DNA from: a virus
IMG/VR virus record: IMGVR_UViG_3300008113_000491
Coordinates: 1 to 36,655 of that record
Strand: one strand, 5' to 3'
DNA: 36,655 bases
Below the pieces are notes generated by a model that was not told where the DNA came from, made no database searches, and was given only the letters and a program-made list of their open reading frames with translations. The position numbers were made by a program, and so were the translations under genes. Below are positions 3,853 through 33,400 of the stretch, piece by piece. Every line of letters starts with the position of its first letter. Position 1 is the first letter of the stretch.

Positions 3853-4718
3853 TAGCTTATTTGCACTCCTTGCATAATATTAATGTTTACAATTGTTGGC
3901 GCTTCAGCATTCCCGACTGGAACAATAAAGCCAGATAAGGGGATGGAAGCAGAAAGTTGACCATTAGAACCGAGATATAGCGGCGATCCTCTTACCCAAC
4001 TCCAGCTAGAATCTGTTACCAATCCACTTAAGACAGTGATAGGTGCAACACCACTAGAAACAGCCTGAAAGGTTAAGCCTAATACTGTCGCATCGGTAGA
4101 ACTATCAGCATATACAAGCTGATTTGAGGCGTTTAATTTTACCAATCTAAGAGCGCTAAGCGAAGCACCCGCTAGATATGATTGAGTTACAGCTTGATTC
4201 TTGGCGGATGGGTTGATTGCCCAATTGCTGCCACTACCAGAGACAATCACATCACCTTTGTCTCCATCCGAGACTTCTCCATCCGCCCCCTGATCGCCTT
4301 TATCCCCCTTATCTCCCTTTTCCCCCCTAACAAGAGTAATTACAGTGGAAGTGATCTCGATTGGGGTATCGGAGATCTTTACGTCTAGGATTATGTCGTA
4401 GCCAGTATTTATCGAGCCATTACTAGCTGTTGCTGAAGGGGTGGCGTAAGCGATCGCTAGAACAAATTTCTTAACCCCAAAATTAACGTCATCAAGAAGT
4501 AATTCAAGAGGGTAGTAACTAGAACTTAACGCTGCCGACTCATCGGAAGAGATCTCAATCTTGAATACCCTGGGGTCTACGGTAGTGTTAGGCGCAAACG
4601 TATTACCAAACAAGGAAACCTTAATTTCTTGCAAGCCTAAGATGTCATAACTGGCATCAAGTCTAATGCCAATCGTATAACTATCGCCCTGCCGAAAACT
4701 AAAAGTGTTCGTCGCCAT
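3852..4718 (-). CDS. Collagen-like tail fibre
   Basis: About 288 residues in three parts. The N-terminal beta domain (residues 1-125) begins FSFRQGDSYTIGIRL and resembles the N-terminal domain of baseplate upper proteins. A short Gly-X-Y tract follows (GEKGDKGDKGDQGADGE), then GDKGDVIVSGSGSNWAI, a typical fibre linker. The C-terminal beta module shares its last strands (SPLYLGSNGQL ... FIVPVGNA) with the gene at 3343-3852. The collagen-like tract implies a trimeric shaft. I chose the ATG at 4718, with GAG about five bases upstream, over the TTG at 4727. A terminator precedes it, so it may have its own promoter, though none is convincing. Confidence 0.7.
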   Translation of the reverse strand: MATNTFSFRQGDSYTIGIRLDASYDILGLQEIKVSLFGNTFAPNTTVDPRVFKIEISSDESAALSSSYYPLELLLDDVNFGVKKFVLAIAYATPSATASNGSINTGYDIILDVKISDTPIEITSTVITLVRGEKGDKGDKGDQGADGEVSDGDKGDVIVSGSGSNWAINPSAKNQAVTQSYLAGASLSALRLVKLNASNQLVYADSSTDATVLGLTFQAVSSGVAPITVLSGLVTDSSWSWVRGSPLYLGSNGQLSASIPLSGFIVPVGNAEAPTIVNINIMQGVQIS

Positions 4719-4728
4719 TTGGCTCAAT

Positions 4729-6787: not shown

Positions 6788-7357
6788 ATGACTCAGTGTG
6801 GCAAAGGATATATTTCGGCAGGTAAGCGCTGTCTCAAGAAGGAAGGTGACGGCATTAATTATGCTGGACATACCTTTCCTGGTTTTAACAAGCCAGTTAA
6901 GTCATGGCGACCAGGCAAGAAGCGAGCCGTACTGGTGAAGAAAGGTGATCGCGTCAAGGTTGTCCACTATGGCGCAACTGGATATCAGAACAACTACAGT
7001 GCCGAAGCCAAGAAAAGCTACTTAGCGCGATCGGCGGGAATTAAAAATAAATCTGGGCAGTCCACGGCGAACGATGTGTTCAGCCCAAACCATTGGGCAA
7101 GGAAAGATCTTTGGTCAAAGAGCCTGCCTGCGAATGGAAGTAATAAATATAAGGTGGACTCTATGGATGGGATGTGTGGATGCTCCGACTGCAAGAAGAA
7201 AGGCTTGAAGAAATCTCAGTGTGCTTGTGGTGGGCAGGACGAGAAGCCTAGTTATAAAAAGCCGTTGGCAAAGTCAAAACGGATTGACTCGACTAAGCCT
7301 GTTGAATATCAAGCCGCCTATTTGGAAGTAAAGAGACAGTATGCCAGACCTAGATAA
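6788..7357 (+). CDS. Small basic Cys-containing phage protein at the head of the plus-strand operon
   Basis: 189 residues, strongly basic. The N-terminus has C4-x10-C15 with GYISAG between the cysteines, a motif repeated at 25880 in this window. Residues about 35-115 (SWRPGKKRAVLVKKGDRVKVVHYGATGY ... SPNHWARKDLW) resemble a small conserved domain of phage head-region proteins, with its pattern of basic residues and closing W-x-R-x-x-LW. A Cys cluster near residues 129-147 (CGCSDCKKKG ... CACG) may bind zinc. The C-terminus carries VEYQAAYLEVKRQY, echoed at both ends of the next protein, which it overlaps by 17 bp. Function unknown; context suggests head assembly. Confidence 0.6.
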   Translation: MTQCGKGYISAGKRCLKKEGDGINYAGHTFPGFNKPVKSWRPGKKRAVLVKKGDRVKVVHYGATGYQNNYSAEAKKSYLARSAGIKNKSGQSTANDVFSPNHWARKDLWSKSLPANGSNKYKVDSMDGMCGCSDCKKKGLKKSQCACGGQDEKPSYKKPLAKSKRIDSTKPVEYQAAYLEVKRQYARPR

Positions 7358-9599: not shown

Positions 9600-10306
9600 T
9601 GGCAACACCTGAGTACCTCAAGCTAAAACCTGTTGAAGCGATCGCTGCTTTACGCGATCGGTTAGCCATCCCGTTGTCCGATTACAAGGGACTGGATGCT
9701 CGTATTCACGACCACGCATTTATGGTATCTGGCTTAATGCGAGCTGACTTACTCGAAGCGACTAAGTGGTTAATCGGCAAAGCCCTTGAGGACGGCACAT
9801 CCTTTGAGCAGTTCACCCGCAGCTTTAATCGTCGCATTGGTCGCGCAGGATATCAGCCGAGTGGCCAGAGGATTAAGTTGATATTTGATACGAACATCAA
9901 CAAGTCTTATTGGCAGGGCAGGGAGAAGGTGATGCGGAGTCCTGAAATGCTGGCTAAGCGACCTTTATGGTTATGGCGGCATCGAGATTCCGTTGTACCA
10001 AGACCCACTCACAAGGCTTTGCATAATAAAGCCATCCCTGCCGATCACCCATTCTGGAAATCCATTTCTTTCCCCCTTGGATTTCAGTGTAAGTGTACCT
10101 GCATGAGTGTTACAGAAGATTACTGTAAACGCAACGGTATCGAAATCCTCTACAACCCGCCAGATCCTGATACTTTGATCGATAATCCTAGTTTTAAGCG
10201 TGGTACTGACACCAAGACTAGGGCGCAAATATTGGAACAAGGACTAAAGCGGTTGTCTCCAGATCTTCGCACCCAAGTTAAAAAGCAGATCAAAACTAAT
10301 GCCTGA
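9599..10306 (+). CDS. Phage head morphogenesis protein, MuF/SPP1 gp7 type
   Basis: 235 residues from a GTG at 9599. The start is chosen because GGAGG lies eight bases upstream and the GTG overlaps the preceding stop (TAGTG). The region from about residue 125 to 165 has the MuF signature: WRHRDSVVPRPTHKALHNK, then IPADHPFWKSISFPLGFQCK with a final CKCTC. MuF proteins bind the portal side of the procapsid and act in head maturation. Upstream helices (LRADLLEA ... TSFEQFTRSFNRRIG) are typical of the family. The next gene, the gpG type, overlaps by eight bases, the usual Mu-like order. Confidence 0.85.
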   Translation: MATPEYLKLKPVEAIAALRDRLAIPLSDYKGLDARIHDHAFMVSGLMRADLLEATKWLIGKALEDGTSFEQFTRSFNRRIGRAGYQPSGQRIKLIFDTNINKSYWQGREKVMRSPEMLAKRPLWLWRHRDSVVPRPTHKALHNKAIPADHPFWKSISFPLGFQCKCTCMSVTEDYCKRNGIEILYNPPDPDTLIDNPSFKRGTDTKTRAQILEQGLKRLSPDLRTQVKKQIKTNA

Positions 10307-11597: not shown

Positions 11598-11626
11598 AAA
11601 AAGGGTCTCAACTGAGACCCTTTTTT
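11598..11626. terminator. Bidirectional intrinsic terminator between convergent genes
   Basis: GGGTCTC (11603-11609) and GAGACCC (11614-11620) form a 7-bp stem with an AACT loop. Five A precede and six T follow the stem, giving a T-run on either strand. It serves the BRO gene on the plus strand and the ParB-like gene on the minus strand, whose stop codon (11625-11627) lies in the T-tract. Confidence 0.9.
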
Positions 11627-16020: not shown

Positions 16021-16869
16021 ATGCAAAAAGTTTATCGCCAGTATTACACACAGGCTCTCGCTGGAATGGTTGAGGGCATGGGCGTAGGTTCCGTTGAAGC
16101 CTATCACAACGACAGTGGCTATGTTAAGGAAGTGTGGACGGTTACAACCCCCGCAACCCCTGTTACGGCTACCGTGTACACCATCACTCTTTACGATGAT
16201 GAAACTTCCTCCAGCCCAATCACCATTTCCTTTACTACTACTACAACTGTTCGTGCTGATCTAGCCACAGGTCTGTTTAATGCTTTCCGCGCCAACCTTC
16301 GTGCTAGCCAGCTTGCCTCGGTAGTAAACAACACCTCCACCTTGGTCTTCACGCACCGCAAAGACAACACTCCAATGTTCGTCACGATTGGCGGTGGTGG
16401 TGCAGCACCTTTGACCGTGCCTACCACTCCAACCACAGCGGCGGCAAGTCCATCTCGCAAGATTGCTGGTGCAGCCCCTCGCGTACCTGGAACCCTCAAC
16501 GGCGGCAGTATTCGCCTCCCCAATAGTGGTGACGCAATTACCGCTATTTGCGGTATTACCCGCCTCAACACTTCCGTTCAAAAGGATCAAGTTGGACCTG
16601 CGGCAACTACGGCTTATGAAGCTAACCAGTTAGCTGTTGACGTTCAACGCCGATTGGGTGATCTCTCTGGTATTTGGGTTCCTACCTTGGAAACCAGCAT
16701 TGCTGAGTCCGATACCGTGTTTATCTCTGTTGCTGCTGGTTCTAAGGGCTACGCCCAGAAGACCAATGCGAACAGCGCGATCGATGCTTCGACCCGCGCT
16801 AGTTTCCGCTCGGATGTTGTAACCGACATCAACAACAACAGGGTTGTCAAAGTTTACGCAAACTTCTAG
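16021..16869 (+). CDS. Capsid decoration / structural cement protein (putative)
   Basis: 282 residues, Thr/Ala/Val-rich and beta-rich, with VYTITLYDDETSSSPITISF, a Pro/Thr/Ala linker and a C-terminal part ending NNRVVKVYANF. It lies between the protease/scaffold gene and the major capsid gene, where Mu-like and related phages encode the decoration protein. AGGAG precedes the ATG by nine bases. The function comes from position and composition; the closest alternative is another head protein of the same operon. Confidence 0.65.
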   Translation: MQKVYRQYYTQALAGMVEGMGVGSVEAYHNDSGYVKEVWTVTTPATPVTATVYTITLYDDETSSSPITISFTTTTTVRADLATGLFNAFRANLRASQLASVVNNTSTLVFTHRKDNTPMFVTIGGGGAAPLTVPTTPTTAAASPSRKIAGAAPRVPGTLNGGSIRLPNSGDAITAICGITRLNTSVQKDQVGPAATTAYEANQLAVDVQRRLGDLSGIWVPTLETSIAESDTVFISVAAGSKGYAQKTNANSAIDASTRASFRSDVVTDINNNRVVKVYANF

Positions 16870-16879
16870 GAGGAGTTCA

Positions 16880-17791
16880 ATGACTACAGCTACTGAAATC
16901 AAAAATGATGACTGGTCAGTGGGCTACTTCAAGGAGCAGCTCGTTGAACTAGAACAGACCCTCGAAAAAGAAGAGTACGAACAGCTTTACTGGGCGAACG
17001 GTACTCTCATTCCTCGCGAAGACTGGAATAAACCCGAACTCGAAGAAACTGGCTATCGCAAGGTAACAGGTATCGGTCGGTGGGAAGCTGCTCGCGACTA
17101 CACCACCCACGTTCCCAACGTTGAGATCGTGTCGAGAGAATTCCGCCAAAGAGTTTCTGAGCATATCGGTGCTTACACTCTCAATGACAAAGAGATCGAG
17201 CTTTCCCAGAAGTTCGGTACTAGCATTGAAGCAGAAAAAGTCCAGATCGTGCTTGAAGCAGGTCAGCAATACCTCGACAAGATGGTATTCCTTGGTGACG
17301 GTCAACTGCGTGGCTTCTTCAACCACCCCGACACCCTGAAGTCCTACTCGGCATTCGCTTTCAACAGTTCTACTACTGTCGCTCAGATGCTCGCAGTGTT
17401 GAACGATACTGGCAACTCGATGCGTCGCTTGACTCGTAATATCGAGACTCCTGACACCATCTTGTTTGCCCAAGCAACTCACGACGAAATCAGCTTCCGT
17501 CGTCTCAGTGACTTCAACAGCGATTCTGTCCTCGACTACTACCTCAGCAAGGCAACTTACATCAAGGATGTAATGCCCTTACTCCCCCTCGAAGGTGTTG
17601 GTGATGGCGGTTCTAACGTTGCTTGCTATTACAAGCGCGACCCGAACAAAATCAAGTTCCGTATCACGGAGCCTTTCTCCTTCAAGAAGTGGATTGAGCT
17701 ACCTCGTGGTATGCAACGCACCGCTCGCATGAAATATGGTGGCTTGATTATCAAGCGTCCCTACTCCGTACTCTGGCTACACGGATTGTAA
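16880..17791 (+). CDS. Major capsid protein (DUF2184 family, HK97 fold)
   Basis: 303 residues. The ATG at 16880 is chosen because AGGAGG lies directly upstream; an upstream ATG at 16844 lies inside the previous gene. Sequence features fit DUF2184 capsid proteins: GIGRWEAARDYTTHVPNVEI, SEHIGAYTLNDKEIELSQ, the helix EAEKVQIVLEAGQQYLDKMV with FLGDGQLRGFFNHPD, and a C-terminal strand KYGGLIIKRPYSVLWLHGL. The N-terminal part (residues 1-45) is acidic and helical and may be a delta-like arm. Position after protease/scaffold and decoration genes agrees. A strong terminator hairpin follows. Confidence 0.88.
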   Translation: MTTATEIKNDDWSVGYFKEQLVELEQTLEKEEYEQLYWANGTLIPREDWNKPELEETGYRKVTGIGRWEAARDYTTHVPNVEIVSREFRQRVSEHIGAYTLNDKEIELSQKFGTSIEAEKVQIVLEAGQQYLDKMVFLGDGQLRGFFNHPDTLKSYSAFAFNSSTTVAQMLAVLNDTGNSMRRLTRNIETPDTILFAQATHDEISFRRLSDFNSDSVLDYYLSKATYIKDVMPLLPLEGVGDGGSNVACYYKRDPNKIKFRITEPFSFKKWIELPRGMQRTARMKYGGLIIKRPYSVLWLHGL

Positions 17792-19717: not shown

Positions 19718-20104
19718 ATGTCTCTAGCCAACAAACTTATTACTAAACTTCAAGGACTGCGCGATCGTCGAGCAGGAGATGCGATCGGTGCGCCTAACGT
19801 GCTGCCATTAACAGTGGTGACTCGCACTGCGTCGGGCGAAACAAGGCTAGAGATATTGCCTCACCCCACGATTCTACGAGTTAACCCTCGTACCGTCGCC
19901 TTGTTTGAAAGCACTAATATCAAGGTTGGTATTGACGACTATCAGGTGAGTGGTATATCTGCGGCATACACCGAGGCTCAGCTTACGGGCAAGGGAAAGT
20001 ATTACATCGTTGACAACTCGATTAAGTGTAACGAAGTAATGGGGACTATCGAAAATAAGAGTTTTAGCTGGGAAATTATTTTAACGAGGATACCAAATCG
20101 ATGA
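19718..20104 (+). CDS. Unknown head-tail region protein
   Basis: 128 residues, mostly beta: LPLTVVTRTASGETRLEILP, TVALFESTNIKVGIDDYQV, GKYYIVDNSIKCNEVMGTI, SFSWEIILTRIPNR. The size and fold impression would suit a neck or tail-terminator protein, but I do not recognise a family. It overlaps the next gene by four bases (ATGA). No Shine-Dalgarno is clear. Confidence 0.6.
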   Translation: MSLANKLITKLQGLRDRRAGDAIGAPNVLPLTVVTRTASGETRLEILPHPTILRVNPRTVALFESTNIKVGIDDYQVSGISAAYTEAQLTGKGKYYIVDNSIKCNEVMGTIENKSFSWEIILTRIPNR

Positions 20105-21702
20105 GTACTGACAGATTAGATGCACAGGTAGAAGTAAAAGTCCCAGCACAAAATGGGCGTAAGGCTTATTCGTATTATCGCAATGTCGGAATAGCGAAGA
20201 AAGGTGCTGCGGGTATTGGCGCTGCACTTACCTTGGGTGGATTGGGGGCAGCAGCGATCGCGATGAGGAAGAAGCCAGAAGAATCAAAAGCCTTACGAAC
20301 ACCAGTTGAGGTTCCCGCTCCTGTTGTAGCACCTCAGTCCACCGCGAGTCGGGTTGGTGAGTTTGCCAAGAAAGCTGCGATCAGGACTGGCGAGACTGTA
20401 GCTACACTTGCGGGAAGTATAGCTGTAAATAAAGCCGTTTCTTTTGCGGTCAAAAAGGCGGTTTCAAAAATTACAGAGAAACCTGAAGAGAGTGGCGAGG
20501 CCCGTCGAGCTAGGTATGCGGCAGAGGATGCTGCGGAGGAAGAAGCGTATGAACAGCGTAAAGCGGCAAAGAAAAACAAAACGACAGAGAGAGAGCCGCT
20601 AAAGCTCACCGATTTTGAAGATGCCCCGCGAATGAGTGGTGATAAAACAGATGAATCGATTCGGCAAGCCGTAATAAAAGGTAATAGACCAGCTCCCCCC
20701 GATCGCCTACCATCGCCAAAACCAAAAGTACAAGTCGGTGGGGCATTAGTCCCTGTCAACAAACCTGAAGCCGCTACACCTCCTCCCTTAACCCGATTGC
20801 CTTACAATCCTCCTGCACCCAAGGTGTCTACTGGTGGATTAACTGTTACTGCGGGTGAATCGGGTGAGAATAGTGGGAGTGCGATCGCTAAACCACAAAA
20901 AACACTACTAACGAAAGTCTCAGGTTCTGCTGGTGCTGCGCTAGGCAGACTTGTCCGTAAGGGCAGGGAAGGATGGGAGCGCGATCGACAAGCTGGCGGT
21001 ATATCCTCGCTACCCGACAAAGAATATGATGTGAATCAGTTGGCTTATAAAGCTGGTCAAAAGACGCGATCGGTAGCCAAGTCTGCTGCTTATAAGGCTG
21101 GTCAAGGTACGCGATCGGCGGCTGAGTCTGTCGCTAATTTCGCCCAAAGTTTTTACAGCACTTTTGTCGAGAACAAAGCGAATGACGTGCAAGCCGAAGA
21201 GGTTAAAGAACCTAGCAAGGTTCAGAGAAAGCTTGGAGGTATAACCATTAAGGCCCTGCCTCAAGGTGGAAAGAGGAAACTCGGTCGTCCAAAGACCAAG
21301 TTTGGTCCCAAAGATTTTATTAAACCAGAGGATAAGCAAGTGAGAAATAATTCCGTTTACATGCGAATCGACAGCCTTGTTGAGCAGATCCGTGAAGATG
21401 CAAAGTGCGGCTCAGGGAGTAAGTCTTGCGGCAAGGTTTGCATCCCTCAAGAGAAGAATTGCTTAGGCGAAACCGCGAAAGCCTTTGGTGGTGGTGCAGT
21501 CCAGTCCTTAGCTGGCCCAATCGGTAGCGGCACTTATCGGGCGCTGCGTAAACGCGGTCATGGTCGAGGTATGTCCATTGGTGGCGCGATCGCTGCAAAT
21601 ACGGTTGCTACACTAACCCCTGCTGCGGGGGTATTAGCCTTGGGCGCTATGGCAGCAAAGAAGGAAGAAGACGAGGCAAACCGTAAAAAGGCTAAGAAGT
21701 AA
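20101..21702 (+). CDS. Modular virion-region protein A: shared N-terminus, Gly/Ala helix, Cys signature
   Basis: 533 residues of unknown function. The N-terminus (VEVKVPAQNGRKAYSYYR) repeats in the next gene. A Gly/Ala hydrophobic helix follows (GIGAALTLGGLGAAAIAMRK, residues about 39-60) and a second near residue 100. The middle is disordered and Pro/Lys/Glu-rich with two AYKAGQ repeats (near 320 and 335). At residues 436-453 is a four-Cys signature (C-x5-C-x3-C-x6-C; KSCGKVCIPQEKNC). The C-terminus is a long Gly/Ala hydrophobic region (GAIAANTVATLTPAAGVLAL) with a lysine tail. The hydrophobic ends suggest membrane contact. It heads a run of linked genes before the tape measure. An ejected or internal virion role is speculation. 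Confidence 0.6.
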   Translation: MSTDRLDAQVEVKVPAQNGRKAYSYYRNVGIAKKGAAGIGAALTLGGLGAAAIAMRKKPEESKALRTPVEVPAPVVAPQSTASRVGEFAKKAAIRTGETVATLAGSIAVNKAVSFAVKKAVSKITEKPEESGEARRARYAAEDAAEEEAYEQRKAAKKNKTTEREPLKLTDFEDAPRMSGDKTDESIRQAVIKGNRPAPPDRLPSPKPKVQVGGALVPVNKPEAATPPPLTRLPYNPPAPKVSTGGLTVTAGESGENSGSAIAKPQKTLLTKVSGSAGAALGRLVRKGREGWERDRQAGGISSLPDKEYDVNQLAYKAGQKTRSVAKSAAYKAGQGTRSAAESVANFAQSFYSTFVENKANDVQAEEVKEPSKVQRKLGGITIKALPQGGKRKLGRPKTKFGPKDFIKPEDKQVRNNSVYMRIDSLVEQIREDAKCGSGSKSCGKVCIPQEKNCLGETAKAFGGGAVQSLAGPIGSGTYRALRKRGHGRGMSIGGAIAANTVATLTPAAGVLALGAMAAKKEEDEANRKKAKK

Positions 21703-21704
21703 TC

Positions 21705-22919
21705 ATGTACGCGATCGCTGCTTTATCAAAAATAATCCGTAGTGATGCCCGAAAAGAGGTGAAAGTCCCTGCTACTCAGGGGCGGAAAGCCTACTCCTAC
21801 TTTCGCGAAGGTGCGGAAGGTGAAGCTGGTTCTTCGCGGAGACCTTCTCGGAAAGTTGTGGCGGGTGTTGGAGGCGCGATCACTGCTGCTGGTTTGGCTG
21901 GTTTAGCGGCGATCGCCATGAGAAGAAGCGAGTCCAACCGAAGAGGACTGCAATCCCCAGCTTTTGTGCCGCCGAAGATCGAAGGTGTTCAAGAGGCGAT
22001 CGCGGAAAAACTATCTCCACAAGAAACAAGGAAAATACCTGTTGGAAGATATCTGTCTTTGGGTGTGGGCGGAATGATCGGACTACAGGTTGTCAGAGAG
22101 AAGACTGCGGATATCAGGGCGTTCTCCGAGTTCAAGAAAGATCGCGAGCAGTTGGCTAAAGACGGCATTCCTAATGAATTGAAAAAATCATACCAACATA
22201 TGAACCCAGAGTTAGCGTTGAGCGTAGCTGCTGCGGAGGCGCGAATTAAAGACAACGATTTTGAGACGGTATACGCTTTTGATAAGGAGGGTAAACCTCT
22301 GATAATCAGAGGAGGAAGCAGGGCTGGTTTTGGGTACGGACTCACGGACTACGCAAAGCTATTCCCATTCGGGCAAAGGAAAAATATTAGCGTTATAACT
22401 CACAATCACCCCCTAGACGCAACCCTTTCAGCGCAAGACTTCGTTCTACTGGAAAAGCAGCAAAAAATGGGGTTTAACAGTCTCACGGAGTTTAGGGCTA
22501 CCAGCGCAAAAAACATGTATAGCCTTAGAGCCAGAAAAGGGGAGTTCCTTGGGGAGCAAGGGACAAAAACTAGGACTTCTAAGGTTGTATACCCGTCTAG
22601 TCGCTATTTCGCAGGGATAGAAATGAACAGACAGACCTCGAATGAGCTAAAGATGCTGAAGATAGCGACTATGAAACTAGATGAAGAGGTTTTAACAAAA
22701 AAGAGATCTGAGGGGCTGAAAGGCAAGGAACTGCTGGAGTCTGCTATTAAGGAAATTGACGAAAGGGGCGAGGAGAGGCATCAAGCTATTCTCGAAGCCT
22801 ACAAAGAAATGAATCGCAGAAAAGGAACTGGAGAAACATCCGGGAATGCTAAAGGCGCGAAATACGAATCGACTCCTTCTCGTTTGATTTATACACGTAT
22901 TCCTCGGAAGGGTAAATAA
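21705..22919 (+). CDS. Modular virion-region protein B with JAMM/MPN-like metallohydrolase motif
   Basis: 404 residues. The N-terminus (KEVKVPATQGRKAYSYFREG) matches the previous protein, followed by a Gly/Ala helix (GAITAAGLAGLAAIAMRR) and a second hydrophobic stretch near residue 115. The folded part starts near residue 170. VYAFDKEGKPLIIRGG leads to VITHNHPLDATLSAQDF, where H233-x-H235-P-x5-S242-x2-D245 fits the JAMM zinc motif (H-x-H-P ... S-x2-D), with LTEFRATSAKNMYSLR after it. JAMM enzymes are metallopeptidases or deamidating/isopeptide hydrolases. The distal part is helical and charged. ATG begins three bases after the previous stop. Enzyme function is inferred from the motif only. 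Confidence 0.65.
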   Translation: MYAIAALSKIIRSDARKEVKVPATQGRKAYSYFREGAEGEAGSSRRPSRKVVAGVGGAITAAGLAGLAAIAMRRSESNRRGLQSPAFVPPKIEGVQEAIAEKLSPQETRKIPVGRYLSLGVGGMIGLQVVREKTADIRAFSEFKKDREQLAKDGIPNELKKSYQHMNPELALSVAAAEARIKDNDFETVYAFDKEGKPLIIRGGSRAGFGYGLTDYAKLFPFGQRKNISVITHNHPLDATLSAQDFVLLEKQQKMGFNSLTEFRATSAKNMYSLRARKGEFLGEQGTKTRTSKVVYPSSRYFAGIEMNRQTSNELKMLKIATMKLDEEVLTKKRSEGLKGKELLESAIKEIDERGEERHQAILEAYKEMNRRKGTGETSGNAKGAKYESTPSRLIYTRIPRKGK

Positions 22920-22920
22920 T

Positions 22921-25554
22921 ATGTACGCGATCGCACCAGCACCAGTAATTCAAAACACAGATCCACTCGCAGCTAGAAGGGTAATCGCGAGACTATTGAC
23001 TCGCATTATTTCTCGCGCTTACGGGAGCATCGATCAGATTGTTAACATCAATATTGGCGATGACGGGCTAATTACCTGCCTGTTTCGCGATGACGATAAG
23101 GATCGCAAGCTGATTCGACTGGTGCTAGGCGATCACATTGAATACAAGCAAGTACTGGATGGACGCACTGATGCAGTAGATACTGACGCAGATCAGTACT
23201 TACTTGCGTATGCAAACAATATTGGACAGCGTGCTGACAAAATTTCTAAGCCTAAAAACTGTAAAGTTGGGCTGTCTTGTAAGGGAGCCTGCATCTCCAA
23301 GACCGATACCTGTCGTATTGACGTACCCGAAGCTTTAAATAGGCAAGAAATTTCAGATCTGAATGATGCGGTAAACGAGGTCCAAAAAGCTAAGTTCGTC
23401 GGCGTTGCCCCTGTTGAGGATGAATTAGATAACAAAAACATCCGCGAATTAAAAGATGAAGCTCGTAAACGTGGGGTTTATCGCTACTCGTACATGAGCC
23501 AATCCCAGCTACGCGAATCAATTCGCTTGCAAAAAGCCAACCCCGATCGCCAAAAGATTGTCCGAGAAGGGTTAAACCGTGCGGAGTCAAACAAGAAAGC
23601 TCTTAAGAGTTTATTACCTCAACCCGTAGCTGGTGCTTGGAAAGATATTGAGAAGGTTAGTAAGTTCTTTGGCGATAATCGTCCTGCGGCAGGGATATTG
23701 GCGGCAAGTATTTTATTGGGCATTCCTTCGTCGGTAATGATGTCGGCTCGCGATCGCTACAAGGAAGGATTGCCCGAATCGGCGCTAATGGCATACCAAA
23801 GAGCGCAAACCACTCCTATCGAGTCAACAAGCAAGCCTCAAATTACCTTTGCTGTGGGTGGATTTTCTAACCTTGGATCTTCGGGTGACAAGGTTGCTGA
23901 ATACCTGAAAACCCCTCTGGATACATCAAAGCGAGAGCAATGGTTTAACAAGACTCAGGAAATCATTCCTTTTAACAACACTGAGTTCAATGTTCCGCCC
24001 ACGAACATTGAACAAAAAGACAAGAATGGCAACTACAATCCCTTGTATTTGGGGTATGTCGCCAAGGAAAGTTTTGGCAAATATTTAAGCAATGCCGTGG
24101 GTGGCAGGAACGAGGCTGCGGTGGACTTAGCCTCCAAGCTATATGCTTATGGCTCCAAGTATCGCGATAAGCCTCTAAACGTGGTTAGCCACGGCTCTGG
24201 AGGTAATGTCGTTGACGAGGCTGCGGAGATTCTTAGTCGAATCAAACCGCCCAAAGGTATTGACGGCGGCGAAGTACTGAAACGACTCAATATTGCTCGA
24301 CTCGGAGGAGTATCCTTTGGGCTAACAGGTGGCACAACTCAGGACGATAAGAACTGGGCAAATATCAATAACCGCACTATCACGTCTAAGAACGACCCCT
24401 TCTCGATTTTACCCAAGAAGTTTGCCCAGTTTGTTAGCTCGGTAAAAGGGCATGAGATTGAGGACTACTTGACGAATGGCGCAGTCAGGGACAAAATTCG
24501 AGAAACTTTTGGCTTCTTTTCTAATTCTGTTGCGGGAAGTAAGTCTAGCGATAAGTCAAAGAAAGAGGTCTTTGAGGCAACAGGGACTTTGCTGAAGACT
24601 GTAAACCCCGCGCTTGGGAAACTGTGGAACCTGACTTCCGCTATTGGTGACAAATACAAGGATAATCCCACTGCTGCCACTATTAGCGCTGCGGCTGTAT
24701 TGGCGCAAACCACGGTAGGTGCAGCAGTCCTTGCTAGAGTTAAATACAATGACAATATCCAAAGATCAGCGCTTGAAGCCCAAGCCATCGTCGCCAGTGG
24801 CGGCACAACATCCCCTGCACCGACAAAACCCCAAGTAATCGTGGCTATTGGTGATGGTGAAACCCCTAGCAGTAACGTAGCCAAGTCAATTACCGACAAC
24901 AGCAAAAAAGTCAAAGACCAGACTGATCGCGATATGTATGGCCAGAGCGATGTAATCGCTTTTGATCGCACCCTTCCACCGCAGTCGAAAGGTCGGGTTA
25001 TGGGCATTATCGACACGATGGCGAAGAGTTACGAAGCCGTAATGAGTAAGTCCCTCAAGGCGGGTAGAGACCCCGAGGCGGTGAGGTTAGCTGCGGAGCT
25101 TTACCAGATTGGCAACTCCACTTACGGTGGTAATACGACAGAGCATCCCGCGATCGCTATTGTTGGACTAAAGCAAGGCGGCGAGACAGCAAAAAGAGCC
25201 TTGGATATCTTGGAGTCCATGCAAAAAGTCGGTTCTCAGGGCAATGTTTCTGGCTCTTACATCGCCAAGCAGATCCACCTCGTAACACTGGGAACTCCCG
25301 AACTAGGTTTTGGCGGAGATAAGGCGGACTCCAAGAAGCCAGACGGAGATATCCTGAAGACTCCAAAAACTGATCTCTGGTCAGATGGAGATCTCTGGAG
25401 TCGGACTCCTTTTAGGGGTAAAAATCCCGACAATTTCACTGGCTCCAATGGTAGTTGGGTGGACTACCTCTCGGTGGATGCTGCTGACGCGATCGCTAAG
25501 AAACTCAATGCCACATTAACTCAGCGCCGTAAAGCGAGGAAACAAACTCCATGA
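22921..25554 (+). CDS. Tandem alpha/beta-hydrolase-like protein with Cys signature and SAP-like motif
   Basis: 877 residues. N-terminal domain of unknown fold (1-105), then a four-Cys signature at C114, C120, C124, C131 (same spacing as the gene at 20101) and an SAP/HeH-like helix pair near 170-200 (NIRELKDEARKRGVYRYSY). Two homologous halves follow, each with a hydrophobic helix (about 255-275 and 580-605). Half one: PQITFAVGG, VVSHGSGGN (S426), SKNDPF (D492), KGHEIEDYL (H511), which fits a lipase-type Ser-Asp-His triad. Half two: PQVIVAIGD, IVGLKQGGE and GSWVDYL, with Ser and His lost. Half one may be active and half two decayed. Substrate unknown; it overlaps the next gene by four bases. 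Confidence 0.65.
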   Translation: MYAIAPAPVIQNTDPLAARRVIARLLTRIISRAYGSIDQIVNINIGDDGLITCLFRDDDKDRKLIRLVLGDHIEYKQVLDGRTDAVDTDADQYLLAYANNIGQRADKISKPKNCKVGLSCKGACISKTDTCRIDVPEALNRQEISDLNDAVNEVQKAKFVGVAPVEDELDNKNIRELKDEARKRGVYRYSYMSQSQLRESIRLQKANPDRQKIVREGLNRAESNKKALKSLLPQPVAGAWKDIEKVSKFFGDNRPAAGILAASILLGIPSSVMMSARDRYKEGLPESALMAYQRAQTTPIESTSKPQITFAVGGFSNLGSSGDKVAEYLKTPLDTSKREQWFNKTQEIIPFNNTEFNVPPTNIEQKDKNGNYNPLYLGYVAKESFGKYLSNAVGGRNEAAVDLASKLYAYGSKYRDKPLNVVSHGSGGNVVDEAAEILSRIKPPKGIDGGEVLKRLNIARLGGVSFGLTGGTTQDDKNWANINNRTITSKNDPFSILPKKFAQFVSSVKGHEIEDYLTNGAVRDKIRETFGFFSNSVAGSKSSDKSKKEVFEATGTLLKTVNPALGKLWNLTSAIGDKYKDNPTAATISAAAVLAQTTVGAAVLARVKYNDNIQRSALEAQAIVASGGTTSPAPTKPQVIVAIGDGETPSSNVAKSITDNSKKVKDQTDRDMYGQSDVIAFDRTLPPQSKGRVMGIIDTMAKSYEAVMSKSLKAGRDPEAVRLAAELYQIGNSTYGGNTTEHPAIAIVGLKQGGETAKRALDILESMQKVGSQGNVSGSYIAKQIHLVTLGTPELGFGGDKADSKKPDGDILKTPKTDLWSDGDLWSRTPFRGKNPDNFTGSNGSWVDYLSVDAADAIAKKLNATLTQRRKARKQTP

Positions 25555-25883
25555 GATTAGACACAACATGCGATCGCGGCAAACCATGCCAAGGCGAAGA
25601 CGGACAAACGTACTGTATCCCTCAAGGCGCTACTTGCAGCAAAGGTAAAGTCGGCAGAATTATCAAAGGCGTTGCTGGCGCAGTTGGTCGTGGTGTAATT
25701 ACTGGGCTGACTGCTGTGGCGATCGCTAAACTTACCAACAAGGACGAGGACGGCTTGAAGGGGAAGTTAAATACGGGGAAAGCCATATTTAACGCGGGTC
25801 GTGCCACGGGTAAAGTTGAATCTAGAGCCGCGAGTGGCGCTAAGGCTATTAGCAAGATAATCAAGAAGCGGAGTAAAAAATGA
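25551..25883 (+). CDS. Small Cys-signature protein with Gly/Ala hydrophobic helix
   Basis: 110 residues. Four cysteines near the N-terminus (C7, C13, C22, C29; CDRGKPCQGED then YCIPQGATC) repeat the signature of the two larger proteins upstream with a longer central gap. A Gly/Ala/Val helix follows (KGVAGAVGRGVITGLTAVAI, about residues 39-58) and a very basic C-terminus ends in KKRSKK. It looks like the N-terminal module of its larger neighbours without an effector domain. It overlaps both neighbours by four bases (ATGA), so it belongs to the same translation-coupled run. Function unknown. Confidence 0.6.
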   Translation: MRLDTTCDRGKPCQGEDGQTYCIPQGATCSKGKVGRIIKGVAGAVGRGVITGLTAVAIAKLTNKDEDGLKGKLNTGKAIFNAGRATGKVESRAASGAKAISKIIKKRSKK

Positions 25884-26038
25884 CGGGGGATTTAGCCAAC
25901 GATTTAGCCTACCTTGAAGGACAGGTATCTGTAGTTTTGCGCCGTGACAGCGGCAAGAAAATTAAATGTAAACAGGGGTATATCCAGCGTGGGAGTGCCT
26001 GTCAGAAGATTGGCGAAAGAAGGCTGCTGGTGATTTAG
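25880..26038 (+). pseudogene. N-terminal piece of a frameshifted modular protein
   Basis: 52 codons from an ATG that overlaps the previous stop (ATGA). The product reads MTGDLANDLAYLEGQVSVV, then RRDSGKKIKC, GYIQRGSAC and QKIGERR, ending at a TAG. C30-x10-C41 with GYI..G matches C4-x10-C15 of the gene at 6788. The reading continues sensibly in the -1 frame just after QKIGER: KAAGDLARNIGVGLGTAALV, the hydrophobic helix of the paralogues. So this piece and the following frame (to 26994) were one gene. No canonical slippery heptamer is seen near 26015-26025. A true mutation or a sequencing indel is more likely than programmed frameshifting. Confidence 0.6.
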
Positions 26039-26994
26039 CTCGGAATATTGGTGTAGGGCTAGGTACTGCGGCTTTGGTTGGTGGCGCGGCGGCGATCGCG
26101 GCAAAAAAGAGCGAAGGCGAGTCTTTATCAAGTAAAGCGACACGAAAATCGGTTGACGTATCTTTTGGTAATAACACGGAGAAGACCAACAATATTAAAC
26201 TCCGAGGTGCTGCAACTGGGGTTGGAGTTGCGGCTGCTTTAGCGACTTCTTATATCGGTGTTAACGCTCTTGATAAAAAGTATCAAATAACAGATGCTGC
26301 TCTGCTTTCTGCCTACCAAGCATCAATATCGCAGGGAGAAAAAGCGGACGCGATTATCGACAAAATGAATATCCCAAAAAAGCGAAAGGAAGAAGCGAAA
26401 GATCTAGTTGGAGCGACTAAAATGTTTTTTGCGAAACAGATAGTTCCTAGATGGGGTTTTCAGTTGTCTTCGGTAGATACGAAAAACAACTCTTTTACTT
26501 ACAAACACAAAGACAATGGTAGTGTTTACACAGTGGGTAGTGCAGGATCTGCGATTATTACATTTGGGAGTTTAAAAAGAGGTGAAAGAGAGGGCAGTCC
26601 TATATACGAAATGGGGTTTCAAGTTAACGAGTCTTTTGATAGAAAAGGGGGTATGGATTCAAGTACCGCTAAAAAAATAATAAAAATATCAAAAAACGCT
26701 TTTAAAGAACACCTAGATTTACTTCCAGAAGACTGCGTGATCAGGTGTTCTCCCTATGATAAGGATGACGCTGGAGAGAAAAGGAGAAGTATTTACGAAA
26801 AAGAAGGTTTTACCCCGTTGCCAAGTATGCCAAAAACTCAGTTGTACGCAGTAAAGATAGGAGGAGAGTTTACAAAGCTGGAGTCCGATTTCGAGAAAAA
26901 ATACGTGGCTAACTTGGTAAGGAATAACAAGCCTAGCTCCAGTTCAGAGCAAAAGAAAGATTCTTATCGCTTGCGAATACTGATCGCAAGATAG
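26023..26994 (+). pseudogene. C-terminal piece of the frameshifted modular protein, GNAT-like domain
   Basis: This frame has no ATG near its beginning. The first possible start is a TTG at 26074, inside the hydrophobic helix, and the frame is open back to about 25972. It encodes KAAGDLARNIGVGLGTAALV, a second hydrophobic helix (GVGVAAALATSYIGVNAL) and a folded domain. The latter has FQLSSVDTKNNSFTYKH, GFQVNESFDRKGGMDSS, VIRCSPYDKDDAGEKRRSIY and YEKEGFTPLP. The last motif resembles the end of GNAT acetyltransferase domains (Y-E-K-x-GF). Joined to the 25880 piece it would be about 370 residues with the same plan as its neighbours. The GNAT call is tentative. Confidence 0.55.
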
Positions 26995-27411: not shown

Positions 27412-27446
27412 AAGAATAACCAAGAAGACTATTTTTGGTTATTCTT
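27412..27446 (+). promoter_or_regulatory. 12-bp perfect stem-loop ending at the tape-measure start codon
   Basis: AAGAATAACCAA (27412-27423) pairs with TTGGTTATTCTT (27435-27446), loop 11 nt; the ATG of the tape-measure gene follows at once. There is no T-run, so it is not a usual terminator, and no Shine-Dalgarno precedes the ATG. It may control initiation. Confidence 0.55.
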
Positions 27447-30400
27447 ATGGCTCCGCAGACAAATGTTGTCGAAATCTTAATCCAAGCCAAGGATCAAGCC
27501 TCAAAGACTATTGGCGTATTAAGCGACTCCCTTGGAACTGCGGGAGCGGCAGCACAGTTTGCTCAGGGAAAAATAACAGCTTTCGGCGGAGCATTACTTG
27601 CAACTTCCGTATCGGGCATAAAGTCGCTAGGGTTGCTTGGCGATGCTGTTCAGTCAGTGCGATCGGCGCTAGACACTCCAGTTGGTCAAACACTAATTCA
27701 ACAGCTTTCGACCGCTGCGGACGAAGCCTTAAACAAGACCGCAAGGCTTTCGGTGTTAGTCAAAGAGGTCTCAGGGGTCTCTAAGGATTTTGGTTCGGGT
27801 TTTACCTCTAGATCCTCAAGTAGTACTATTCAGCTTTTTGATCCTGCGGTAATGGGCAAGCAGCTTGAAAATGTCGTCATCAAGACTGCCGACACATTCT
27901 CAAAGACACTTGAACAAAAAATTAAGAACTCCGATCTTGCTACCGCTTTTGAGTCAAAACTAGGTGTGAGTATCGACTCACTGTCGGCACAGCTAGACAG
28001 TTCCTTGTCAGAAACACTGTTATCGGGATTTGTAGGCAAAACACTACCTAGCGCCCTCGATACTGCACTAGGTAGTGTTTTTGGGGTGAATTTAACTTCA
28101 AAGATCGTTCAATCGATTCAAGCGGCGGGGAAGTCAAACCTATTGGGTGGAGTAGCTGGGAAGCTCGCTCAAGGATCGGTTGTCGGAGCTGCTAGAGAAC
28201 TGGCAGTTGGAGAGTTAACCCCGAACCTTGAATCAGCCCAGTTAGCTGGCGCAAAACTATCTAACGCATTTGGGAAAAAGGTAGCTCAAGCCGTTTTAGG
28301 TGAAAGAACCCCTGCAAGCGCAGAGTTTAAGGAGATAGACGCTCAACTTGGCGGCGCTTTGGGCGATGTTATTGATCGACTTGGACAGAGGTTCCCCGAC
28401 GTTTTAGAAAAAGGGAACCTGCCTATCGGCAAGCTGCTTGCCACCAAGTTAAGAGGGGCTGCACAGGTAACTTCTAAGAATGAACTCCAAGCGGCGGGGA
28501 ATTTTCTTGTAGAGACGGCTTTTTCTAATCTGAGGAATATTAGGAGAAATCTTTTAGACGACGATCTTAATGCGGTATTTGATCTTGTTGTTGCGCCCGC
28601 TTTTAATGCCCAGAAAGACAACTTAAAGAAGCTAATCGGAATTGATGCAGCGACTTTCTCTGTTGGGATTTTAGATCCCCTCAAAAAGACTTCAAGGGAT
28701 CTAGCTAAAGGCTTTGATGACGGGCTTGGTGCTGGGCTTGACAGTATTAAAGGTGGTGGCGCGATCGCTGAATATATAGCTCAGGTAGACGAGTTCCTTG
28801 GCGGCGGCATTACCGAAGCTCTGACTCTCGCGGGGAATAAAGCTGCTTCTAGCTTTGCTGAAGGTTTTCGCGCTGCTGTTTTTGAAGAAATTACAGGTGT
28901 TCTCGATAACATTGATGCGTTTGTACTTGGTAGCCTAGAAAAGATTTCTCAAGTACCCCAGAAGCTTGTTCAGCCAATCAGCTTAGTTTCTTTGGTGTCA
29001 GATCCGATCGCTGGCGCTACAGAACCATTAGAACTATTTGAACTGCTAGAGACGGGTGCGAGTAAAGCGACCAACGCTGTTTTTGAGGTTTCGCAGCGAC
29101 TTACTTTCCTGTCTTTTGGATTGCAAGCTTTACAGGGGTTTGTGCAGAACGGGCCATTCCAGTTATTAATTGGGCAAAACGCAAGGCTTCAAGAACAGTT
29201 GCTAGCGACACAAGCCAGCCTCGTTGCGACGAATCGTATTATCCAGAATGGTGTAACAATATCCGACCCAACCAAGGCTATTCAGGCTCTTGGTCCTGCG
29301 GTTGAAGGCGCGATCGCGAAGATTCGTAAAGACTCATTGGAATTAGTGGGGGTAACTTCAAAAGATCTCGTCGATTTGTTTCAAATCGTCGCGGGTCAAG
29401 CCAGTTCGATTGGGGCAAATCTAGATCAATCCGCAAATATCGTTACCTCGACGGCTGCGGCGCTAGGGACTCTGGGAGTGCCTTTGTTCCAAGCAAGGCA
29501 AGAAATAACCTCAATTGTTCAAGGAACTATCGACCAAAACTCTGTGCTTGCGAAGAATCTCAGCATCAATAATGAGATGGTCTCAAAGTGGAAGGCGCAG
29601 GGGACTTTTGTTGATGAACTACTCAGGAAGCTGGAAGCATTTAAGGTTGGCAACAAGCTCGCAAGCCAGACGATATCAGGGATCACGAGCAACATCCAAG
29701 AGGTATTTGACGAGATTGGACGCAAAGCTGGGGCTAAGTTCTTAGCTCCCATCGTTAAGGAGCTAGACGGTGTTTACAAATTTCTTGCGGCAAACCAAGA
29801 TGTTATATCAACACAGGTCGAGAAACTGGTTTCTATTTTCTTTCGAGCTTTCGACAAGATTGTTGTTCTGTTTAAGGCTTTAAGCGATCCCATAGCCCAG
29901 CTTTTTGGCGCAATTCCAGAGTATTTGGTGGAGTCATTAGCGGGGGCTATTACAGCCTTCTCAGATTCAGTAGTCTTTGCTATTAATATCCTTAAGCCAG
30001 CGATCGCGGTTTTCCTTGAGATCTTTAAGCTGGTGGCTCCTTTGGGCGGCGCATTTATTACCGCTTCTGTCGGAGCTAAAGTATTGTCGGCAGGAATATT
30101 GGGGCTAGGGCAAGGCTTTGGGTTCTTGTCCAAGATTCTTCCAGGGGTCGGTGAGTTACTGTTTATAGTTGACAAGAGATCGAATAGTCTCTTCAATCAG
30201 TTCTTGAACCTTACTTCTGTTCTCGGAAATAGAGGTGCTGCTGGATTTTTAACCTTTGCGGCTAACTTAGACAAGATACCTGGGGCAGCAAGCTTCGCAA
30301 CGAAACAGTTGCAGGGACTACTGGGAGGATTGGCTCCTTTGTCAGGGTTCTTGGTTTCCCTAGCTCCACAAATCGGCGGGCTAGGTATCAAGTTAGCTGG

Positions 30401-33400
30401 TCTTGCTCAAGCATTTCCCGCTTTAAAAACCGTTTTTGAGAAAGCGTTTATTGGCGCGCCAGGGGCTTTACTCGTTCTTTCTCGTATTGTCGGAAAAAGC
30501 GAAATCTTTGGTAGCCTCGCGCCCTTAATCAACGACGCTTCAAAACAACTTGCTAAATTTACTGGGGTCGCCAGCAATGCTGAAAAAGCTAACTCGCTCT
30601 TTGCTAAGAGCTTACAACTTGGAGGTGCGGCGGCGAGGGAATTTGCTGTTAATAGCGTACTGCTAGGGGCTGGGGTTGGAGTTGGTTTTGTCTTTTTAGA
30701 TCAGTTAATCCTGAAAAACAAAGGCTTACAAAAGATAATTCAGGACTTGACGGCAGCAATCCGTAAGTTTGCCGATACCGTTGGAGCTATATTAGCTCCC
30801 GTCTTTAAGTTGATTGGCGACACGATATTGCCACTCTTTACTTTTGGGGAGAATTCAAACCCCTTTCAAAAGATAGTTGGAGGGCTTTTAATAGCGATCG
30901 CCGTAGTAAAACTTTTTGGTGGTACGCTTTCTGCTGTTTTTAAGGGTGTTAACAACAGTATCGGAACCCTGAGTACTGGTATTTCAGAAACATTCACCAA
31001 GATTAAAAGAGCTAACGACAGCCTCAAAGAAATCTTGGGCTTAGCCAAGGAGGAGGGGAAGACAAAGACTTTTGTAGCGCCACTGCTGCCCAAGGACGAA
31101 GGATTAAGAAAGGAGGTTTCTCAAACAAGTTTAAGGGAAGCGCTTAAATCAAAAAAAGAAGAGCTAAGTTTGTTGGCTCAAGAAAAAAAAGCTATTCAGG
31201 AAAACAATCTAGCCAGAGCTTCTGAGCTTAGGGGAAAGGCATCCCAAGCTAGAGACGCAAAAGAGGCTGCGACAAGAGTATCCAAAGAGTTTAGGGAAGG
31301 AAAAACCGAAGTTAGTATTCCTCAAAAACTAATAACAGACAAGGATGTAGCCCAAGCAAAGCTTAGGGTGAAAGAAATTGAGAAGGATATTATTCGAGCG
31401 TCAAAAGAGGCTCGGATAAATGTCAATATAGATCCAGAAGCCTCCAAAATAGCAAAGGTTCAAAGGGAATACGCGATCGCCCAAGTCAATGCGGTTAAGG
31501 CATCCATCGAAGATCAGAAGCTGGTAGCGCCACTTAGTCAACTTGTTTTAGAAAAACCTCTAGCCCAGCTAGCAAAGATTAGGGATGCGGTTGGAGTTGG
31601 ATTGCTAAACAGCTTCCTAAAAGCGGGAGATCAGGTTCTTGCTTTTTCGGGCAAAATCGACTCTGCTCTGATAAAGCTCAGTCAGTTCGATCTAGGCAAA
31701 ACTCTTAGAAATATCGGATCTTTTGATGTAGGAGCTTTCGTCTCGAAGGGCTTTGAGAATGCTGTTGCTCAAGCAAAAGATACTGGGAAGGCGATCGCTG
31801 CATCTCTTTCTGGAAAAGGAGAAAAAAGTAATAGAAACTTCTTGCAAGAATTAGACGTTAGAGCGGGGCAATTTATTGATCCTAATCGAGCTGAAAGGCT
31901 TAAAACCCTAGAGGAATTAAAATCCTTTAACGAAAAGCGAAAAGCCCTTGCTGCTGAAGCTAAAACCATAGATCCGAGTACAGGGTTATCTGCTAACGGT
32001 TCTAGTCTGGAGAAGATAGGGAAAGACGCTCAGAATATAGACGCTAATATTCAAAGACTTAGCGCTCAAGCCGAACAGCTCGACATCCCTGTTAGAAAAG
32101 CAGCGAAGGGGCTTGTCAACTCATTCAAGAATGTTATTGCGGAGGTTGGACCAACCCTGCTACTGACGGCTCTGTTTGCTGGTATTACCACGTATATCGG
32201 GTTTATTGACGAACAAAACAAGACAGTGGCGAACGGGGCTGAGAGGCTTGGAAACGCACTTAAAGACACTAAACAAAAGATTGATATTCTTAATGCGTCC
32301 CAAGGTAAAGACGCGCTTGGCGAGCTTAATAAACTAACAATCGCTAGGCAGAAGTATGTTGACGCTATTCGAGATCCAAAAATCTTGGTTGACGATCCTA
32401 CCTTGAAACTTTATGATCGCCAGATAGCCAAGCTCCAACAACTCAGGAGCTTGCAAGCAACTCCAGTAGATCCCGAAGCAAGAATCAGGGCAGAAGTGGA
32501 AAAAGAATACGAGCAAGACTTTGGCAAAAAATTCATAGCTGGACTTGGCTCTCTTTCTGGGACGAATGCAAAAGAATCCGACATTCAAACAAGATCCGCT
32601 GCCGAAGATCTTGCTCTTTCTAAGGTAAGGGCGGAGATCAACCTCCAAAAAAGAGAAGGACTCGCCCAGCTAATTGCTGAACAGGAAGAACTGATCCGAC
32701 TGGAGCAGAAGAAGAACGTCCTTCAAGAGAGGGGTGATGCTGAAGCTGTCAAGGCAACTGAGTTGGCGATTGAGACCAAGAAGGAAGACATTGCCACTAG
32801 AATTGGAGATATCGATACTATTATTCAGCAGATCGAGAGTAACAAGAAGGCTAGCAGTCAAATAGCCAAAGACCTGATCGGTGAAGCCACAAAACTAAAA
32901 GAAGCCTTTAAGTCTGTTGATCTCAAAATCGCTCCGATCGATTTACCTCGCATCGGGAGTGCGATTGAGCAGTCAACGGCAAAATATAAAGCCGCCGAAG
33001 AAGCTCTGGCTAGATCTGCGGGAGACCCTGCGATATTCAAGACAAAGATGACTGAACTCTTGGAGGCTTCTACGGTCTTGCAGGAAGCTGGTATTTTAAG
33101 GGCTGACGAGGTTGCTAAAAACTTTATCAGTATCGCCACCAACGTCTCCGCTGATCGCGACCTCCAAATCAAAGCTCAACAAGCAATTACTGAGGCATAC
33201 AACAAAGAAGCTCAAAAGCGCATTGCCACAATCGACGTACAGCAGGCAAAGATTCAAGCTTTGCTCGCCACTGGCAAGATCTCCGAGTCTGAGGCTAGCG
33301 TCCTGACAGGTAAAAACGAGATAGACAAAATTGACGCTCAGTTTGAGGCTGAGAAGAAATCCTTTGAGGCGAGAAAGGTAATCCGAGAGCGAAATGCCAA

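Follow-up and report, generated by a model that had tools for sequence, protein, structure and literature searches.

The window analysed here is the entire IMG/VR virus record IMGVR_UViG_3300008113_000491 (36,655 bases), and its subject is a compact array of five genes at 20101-26994, all on the forward strand and spaced by -4 to 2 bases, in which small recurring heads are joined to differing C-terminal parts. The first gene (20101..21702) encodes a 533-amino-acid protein with a head carrying the motif KVPA (about 20101-20310), a hydrophobic stretch, a long charged region, a four-cysteine unit (Cys4) at 21388-21465 and a Gly-rich tail. The 404-amino-acid product of the second (21705..22919) has a KVPA head at 21705-21959, a hydrophobic stretch and a putative JAMM domain at about 22224-22544, recognized by its E, HNHP, S and D. 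In the third (22921..25554, 877 amino acids) a beta-rich head is followed by Cys4 at about 23245-23322, a hydrophobic stretch at 23686-23742 and two alpha/beta-hydrolase-like copies. The fourth (25551..25883, 110 amino acids) consists of a Cys motif and a Gly/Ala-rich hydrophobic stretch, with no cargo seen, and the last (25880..26994) has a Cys motif, a hydrophobic stretch and a tail that looks GNAT-like by eye only. Upstream, the array borders on a putative neck/tail-joining gene (19718..20104, forward strand), whose product matches ORF077 of Planktothrix phage PaV-LD by blastp (2.9e-13), itself matching gp043 of Aphanizomenon phage vB_AphaS-CL131; the neck role is proposed because of the position of the gene. 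Downstream lie a 116-amino-acid gene (27048) and the gene of the 2,900-amino-acid tape measure protein (27435..36137, forward strand), which matches the tape measure of CL131 at 9e-128 and that of PaV-LD at 5e-96 by blastp and has no PHROG match at 0.01.

A preliminary description of this DNA had proposed one conserved N-terminal plan for several of these genes. We found three heads instead, namely KVPA, Cys4 and the beta-rich head. The N-terminal part KVPA..GRKAYSY, one of the motifs named in the description, is indeed common to 20101 and 21705: they share 49% identity over residues 5-81 of 20101 (tblastn, E 4.6e-12), and a five-row KVPA profile, which has both genes among its rows, scores them at 5.8e-36 and 7.6e-37. 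A single head for the whole set was rejected, since KVPA and Cys4 are distinct modules and both are present in one 152-amino-acid protein of the sister phage L004. The Cys4 pattern is approximately C-x5/7-C-G-x2-C-I-x5/6-C, often preceded by R-x-D-A. Its profile (A7) consists of 25 rows from the window and relatives, one of them from 20101, and was scanned against 32 proteins, that is 31 of the window plus the 25880 gene as read from the near-identical contig L003. The top five are 20101 (2e-13), 22921 (8e-4), 25551 (2.3e-3), the 25880 gene (4.8e-3) and 6788 (0.012), and the sixth-ranked protein has E 2.1; the score of 6788, which lies outside the slot of the array, falls under the HMMER inclusion line. 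The Cys signature that had been noticed in both 22921 and 25551 is thus recovered, weakly but within the top five. In 20101 the Cys4 copy (E 3.5e-13) sits in the C-terminal part, which had been taken as merely long and disordered and in fact holds the one strong copy of the window. The beta-rich head ahead of Cys4 in 22921 is matched at 6.9e-16 by a profile made from 12 copies of other records, without the window. As for KVPA, it was found in the virus contigs of L003 and L004 only, and its genome scan gave no relative among 140 candidate stretches; both scans require exact short peptides, so distant copies could escape. Against phage records, tblastn with 21705, which has a KVPA head, gave nothing at E 0.01.

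The last array gene is split into two frames in the window contig by a frameshift within 25880-26080, while L003 (99.9% identical) and L004 have it as a single intact 371-amino-acid frame. A functional frameshift is unsupported because the frames of both relatives are intact, which leaves an assembly-type error of the contig or a genuine indel as sources of the split.

The modules are shuffled between relatives. The L004 counterpart of 20101, a 614-amino-acid protein with 43% identity, has two KVPA heads, and the Cys4 end of 20101 is matched in L004 by a stand-alone gene for a 148-amino-acid protein (67% identity). The 152-amino-acid L004 protein combines the KVPA motif with a Cys unit, and its residues 44-152 are 80% identical to 25551 of the window. 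The second, internal head of the 614-amino-acid protein has 76% identity to residues 11-77 of 21705, and after it blastp finds nothing that matches the JAMM part. Around one Cys4 copy, 36 residues are the same in CL131 and in L011; beyond them the two diverge by eye, a J-domain being located further downstream in L011. In L033 (5576-10222) a 1549-amino-acid protein contains four Cys4 units, two hydrolase-like domains and a C-terminal DnaJ domain (9.8e-14). The idea of a conserved head with swapped tails, which is also how MuF-linked polymorphic toxins are built, is strongly borne out by the L004 and CL131/L011 comparisons, and the C-terminal parts differ between the array genes as had been stated, for example JAMM on 21705 and hydrolase-like copies on 22921.

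With the Cys4 profile all ten related virus records searched were positive, at 1-19 copies each, 77 matches in total and E down to 1e-15; these records were chosen for holding Cys4, several are near-copies, and 25 matches or close copies are rows of the profile. A control set of 11 phages, including nine cyanophages, has no match below E 0.02 (best 0.021 and 0.023). Among genomes of the cyanobacterial class Cys4 is found in 5 of 388 and among those of the Nostoc family in 7 of 217, both counts including the Nostoc genome that supplied profile rows. In the three Nostoc-family genomes with at least four copies, 17 of 18 copies are on one contig each. Single genes of Nostoc-family genomes (L098-L101), unlike full arrays, have what by eye is a beta-rich head with Cys4, and one of them (L099) bears the zincin motif HEMGH. 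The virus contig G007 (118.6 kb; loci L015 and L030-L032) has 19 copies on both strands. No HIP1 site was found in three stretches of it that were counted, and it may thus infect a host outside the cyanobacteria. By tblastn, the Cys4 core of L014 had no match among phage records at E 10 or among plasmid records at E 1, and that of CL131 found CL131 itself and one further phage (two records) at E 5. In PaV-LD (HQ683709, L010), eight places of the genome resemble ORF085, which has Cys4 with an ART-like part, and form a large paralogous set.

The JAMM domain on 21705 appears well supported by sequence profile and motif. A profile of 27 sequences, made without the window and omitting the near-duplicates L059, L077-L080 and L082-L084, matches 21705 at 3.1e-14, with the next window protein at 0.062. 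The JAMM/MPN+ signature is E ... H-x-H-P ... S-x2-D; 21705 carries it, and across an alignment of 25 sequences, that of the window among them, E5, H51, H53, P54 and D63 are invariant and S60 is nearly so. AlphaFold2 models the JAMM core (25 rows) with a predicted local distance difference test score (pLDDT) of 73 and a predicted template modelling score of 0.66, and a 285-residue stretch (4 rows) with pLDDT 45. Foldseek ranks RadC and a homolog of Rpn11 at the top for the core, with probability 1.0 and E 7.7e-3, and no row reaches E 0.001. In a VIA comparison with P. furiosus JAMM1 the core gives Z 7.8 and a root-mean-square deviation of 5.1 over 100 aligned residues, a Z under 8 being where the tool warns of common arrangements. 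The structural rows shown are mostly JAMM/MPN proteins with modest individual scores. The PDB sequence matches of the profile are designed repeat proteins and a few others, none named JAMM, and were set aside as spurious. Profile, signature residues and a modest fold match together agree with the JAMM-like tail of the preliminary description.

The same domain links Cys4 to known virion heads. Cys4 proteins that bear it occur in L056-L062, and L033 has two, the second being the gene of L062; by locus, 7 of 34 JAMM virus loci have Cys4, in a search whose query also carried Cys4. A Pfam scan of the 27 loci without Cys4 took 20, the other seven being near-duplicates, and found Phage_Mu_F in nine, Phage_min_cap2 in two and neither in nine, among them L069, which is cut by the contig end. 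The link to MuF effectors that had been suggested therefore gains support, and the presence of one JAMM cargo on Cys4 and on known virion heads is the best comparative argument for Cys4 as a virion head. It is a speculation that the JAMM cargo would remove ubiquitin-like tags set by host defence; the idea arises because the structural rows include a complex of Cap3 with a CD-NTase and one of a bacterial ubiquitin-like deconjugase.

Other cargo of the window is less clear. For its array frames neither Pfam nor, for the set, NCBIfam gives any match above cut-off, and the Pfam and PHROG rows for the five frames (e.g. FKBP_N, Rho_N) are below cut-off or weak and were rejected. The 22921 protein matches CL131 in tblastn at 5e-31. 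An active alpha/beta hydrolase has its Ser nucleophile in G-x-S-x-G, which 22921 lacks; since the Ser is missing in both hydrolase-like copies, 22921 is probably no enzyme, and the copies probably serve structure or binding. The copy that matches the Ser-less one of 22921 is also without Ser in CL131, L011, L012, L013 and L004, and L033 retains SHSVGG. In the whole list of hydrolase elbows 15 of 23 have the Ser and 8 do not, the list being made by a custom pattern that misses LTGHSAGG (CL131, L011) and AHCNGG (L016). The GNAT-like tail of the 25880 gene did not hold up beyond inspection by eye: the full gene from L003 has no Pfam or NCBIfam match, a two-row profile of its C-terminal part has no PDB match, and a scan with the GNAT profile finds the L003 and L004 contigs only. 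The JAMM metallopeptidase-type domain on 21705 is the likely active cargo of the window, and a GNAT-like domain is perhaps another. In relatives the Cys4 proteins carry, above Pfam cut-off, RNase_T, LRAT (two genes), an eCIS_core metallopeptidase, DnaJ (L011, L014, L033), ART (PaV-LD ORF079) and hydrolases of the DUF676/Lipase_3/DUF900 type; by motif or below cut-off, zincins (PaV-LD ORF080/081, L014, L015, L032) and ParB-like parts are added. Several conflict-type domains are on one polypeptide in L011 (hydrolases and DnaJ) and in CL131 gp048, and not clearly so in the window.

A Gly/Ala-rich helix had been described as part of the common plan. It is present in the five array proteins, whose best 19-residue Kyte-Doolittle values are 1.64-1.86, and it is not distinctive alone because 6 of 27 other window proteins are as hydrophobic (at least 1.64). 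Over all records, a hydrophobic stretch (Kyte-Doolittle of at least 1.4 within 90 residues after Cys4) follows 40 of 71 copies versus 14 of 110 controls, the latter being drawn at random from long open frames of either strand, some of them not genes; the Mann-Whitney p for hydrophobicity after Cys4 is 1.7e-4, with copies that are not independent.

Position and fusions connect the array with the virion. In seven records it is flanked by a neck gene and the tape measure gene (the window, CL131, PaV-LD, L011, L012, L016 and L060, in the last of which only the JAMM gene was read), and L013 has a neck gene, an array and a weak tape-measure match. In the window this slot is filled by genes with one strong and several weak Cys4 copies, the weak ones numbering four with 6788. 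In one cyanobacterial genome, G248, Cys4 is fused to virion proteins: of two copies (9.6e-6 and 1.1e-5), one is between Portal_Mu (2.9e-96) and a C-terminal part that matches positions 979-1327 of PHROG 21 (portal, 5.9e-64), and the other is between Phage_Mu_F (1.5e-11) and Peptidase_C39 (7.5e-5). In G007 it occurs in a protein with a below-cut-off match to a Mu-like protease (4.5e-5). The 189-amino-acid protein of the window at 6788..7357 (forward strand) has the N-terminal Cys motif CGKGYISAGKRC, and its residues 17-130 match positions 513-625 of phrog_220 (minor head protein, DNA pilot) at 4.5e-31. A MuF-like minor head protein encoded apart from the array (9563..10306, forward strand; Phage_Mu_F 1.6e-9) matches positions 896-1087 of the same family at 7.8e-54, and 6788 and 9563 therefore look as if one long minor head protein had been split. 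In the PaV-LD record, ORF081 is labelled "virion structural protein" and ORF085 "minor virion protein".

Taken together, we read 20101-26994 as a modular array of virion-associated proteins, whose heads would load variable cargo that is probably ejected and would act in the host, and we give this reading a probability of about 0.6. The small interchangeable heads (Cys4, KVPA, beta-rich), often with a Gly/Ala hydrophobic helix, would attach or sort cargo into the particle and position the array proteins near portal and neck; the cargo would exit with the DNA at infection and act within the cyanobacterial cell or its envelope. That the array proteins are packaged in the virion is likely in our judgement, and for their ejection and action in the host the balance tips slightly in favour. 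As a tentative and rather doubtful extension, Cys4 may be a general virion-loading tag, short and held by zinc or disulfides, by which unrelated enzymes are loaded as separate proteins, JAMM possibly countering host ubiquitin-like conjugation in anti-phage defence; it occurs in up to 19 copies per virus record and on about ten cargo types, some recognized by motif alone.

Several observations weigh against this interpretation. The presence of array proteins in virions is a prediction from sequence; 23 proteins of CsCl-purified CL131 virions were identified by liquid chromatography with tandem mass spectrometry (PMC6293099), and ORF044, 045, 047 and 048 are unnamed in the main text of that paper, whose virion list is in the supplement. 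Cys4 is weak in 22921, 25551, the 25880 gene and 6788, and only 20101 is strong and is itself a profile row. Copies also exist beyond the slot: PaV-LD ORF065 is located before the head genes, in L014 three Cys4 genes adjoin MuF and a fourth follows the neck gene, and the 19 copies of G007 are spread over about 75 kb. Both hydrolase-like copies of 22921 are without the catalytic Ser (SHGSGG and VGLKQGG, by pattern and by eye versus relatives). The hydrophobic stretch is missing in five of six Cys4-JAMM copies and in five of six PaV-LD copies, the sixth being Pro-rich, so a membrane step would be common, not general. Finally, Cys4-like motifs are found in 5 of 289 genomes from a proteobacterial class, that of a Caulobacteraceae bacterium, mostly in short, secreted-looking proteins, and the motif alone is therefore no virion mark. 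Three such loci (L090, L092, L094) encode short proteins, secreted-looking by eye, with one or two Cys4-like motifs, which suggests that cells have this motif too, perhaps as a unit held by disulfide bonds.

Could the array proteins be structural or assembly components of neck and tail, partners of the tape measure, with enzyme-like domains that are recruited binding folds and have no effector role? The repeated slot beside the tape measure would fit this, as would the Ser-less last hydrolase copy before the tape measure (CL131, L011, L012 and L013, with the window/L004 counterpart), the 68% identity that the Ser-less 22921 still shares with its L004 protein and the lack of an enzyme domain in 20101 and 25551 (Pfam, PHROGs). 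However, cargo varies between close relatives, catalytic motifs are retained in JAMM copies and in most of the listed hydrolase elbows, and an exonuclease, LRAT or ART would be odd as structural parts, so we consider the structural explanation unlikely. Less probable still are late proteins that never enter the virion, such as membrane-anchored exclusion, lysis or anti-defence factors in the infected cell. Fusions of Cys4 to portal, to MuF and to the below-cut-off Mu-like protease protein argue against them, as do the location inside the head-tail block and the minor head/pilot match of 6788, even though a hydrophobic stretch follows more than half of the Cys4 copies and bacterial Cys4 proteins look secreted. 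That low-complexity and cysteine-motif similarity arose by chance, with no family at all, is very improbable. Gly/Ala helices are compositionally simple, and four of five window Cys4 copies are weak; yet the Cys4 matches in the ten selected records include copies far beyond the control phages in score, even with the profile rows and close copies in mind, and the beta-head profile finds the window without having used it. For the strong Cys4 copies chance similarity was already refuted. The best reading that these sequences offer is one of virion-borne effectors, probably ejected, which are modular, split over several genes and related in kind to polyvalent and MuF-linked proteins.

Elsewhere in the window, the anchor is the major capsid protein gene (16844..17791, forward strand; Pfam Major_capside 4.4e-24, PHROG 264 2e-37), accompanied by family matches to virion morphogenesis (10299), a DUF2213 head protease (14512) and DUF4054 (18929). 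The gene at 7341..9599 (forward strand, 752 amino acids) has an N-terminal Cys/aromatic stretch, a hydrophobic helix (Kyte-Doolittle 1.94 at residue 100), a long charged region and a C-terminal HeH/LEM domain (HeH 3.6e-7). It had been counted as a looser family member and is doubtful as such: its KVPA similarity is weak (E 0.0017), it does not enter the Cys4 matches, and full membership was rejected. HIP1 sites (GCGATCGC), a sign of cyanobacterial DNA, number 55 in the window versus 0.4 expected, which indicates a cyanobacterial host. The record is probably a fragment of a longer virus, because the record of L003, 99.86% identical, spans 49,116 bases. On the opposite strand within the structural block, a gene at 11625-13529 (634 amino acids) looks by eye like a ParB-type domain with a methyltransferase-like end and has no Pfam match at E 0.01. 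A tail-fibre-like gene, also by eye, with a collagen-like GEKGDKGDKGDQG stretch is at 3852-4727 on the reverse strand.

Among published concepts, polyvalent and MuF-linked proteins come closest to the Cys4-headed split array. Polyvalent proteins combine several domains each, belong to portal-terminase phages and are predicted to enter the particle and be injected (Iyer et al. 2017, PMC5512222). That account resembles the present family in its peptidase, ART, JAB/RadC and DdrB-like ParB domains and in its MuF and portal fusions; it also has GNAT domains, for which the counterpart here is seen by eye only. In contrast, the array cargo is split over many genes, mostly each with a small common head, and lipase-like, LRAT and J-domain cargo is added; in the main text of PMC5512222 the words "cysteine", "DnaJ" and "transmembrane" never occur, and "cyanobacteri" occurs once. 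With the MuF polymorphic toxins (Zhang et al. 2012, PMC3482391) the array shares a conserved virion head with variable C-terminal cargo, and MuF-headed proteins of other phages carry a JAMM domain as 21705 does. The array itself is without a MuF domain: Pfam found no Phage_Mu_F on 20101, 21705, 22921, 25551, the 26074 frame or the full 371-amino-acid L003 gene, and the MuF of the window is the separate gene 9563. Nor is there room for immunity genes inside the array, given its tight spacing, although 27048 follows it. The likeness to polymorphic toxins and MuF-linked effectors stands for swapped tails and the MuF link. The targeting signals of the T4 internal proteins and Alt and of phage P1 Dar are presumably not Cys4. 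These proteins, too, travel inside the phage head and leave it together with the DNA (PMC5512222). Members of the same family with the same Cys4 module and slot are gp044, 045, 047 and 048 of CL131 and ORF078-081 and 085 of PaV-LD, mostly deposited as hypothetical, with cargo sets that differ from that of the window. None of the titles and abstract openings listed by searches of an open-access library describes Cys4-headed arrays split over several genes, in line with the earlier statement that the set is undescribed.

If this reading is true, hypothetical proteins in phages of filamentous and bloom-forming cyanobacteria would become a readable catalogue of delivered enzymes, recognized via one short motif, and JAMM, ART, zincin and J-domain cargo would be counter-defence candidates. 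The heads may represent a natural route for loading proteins into particles. The notion also offers a cheap test, as a tagged protein would either be in the virion or not.

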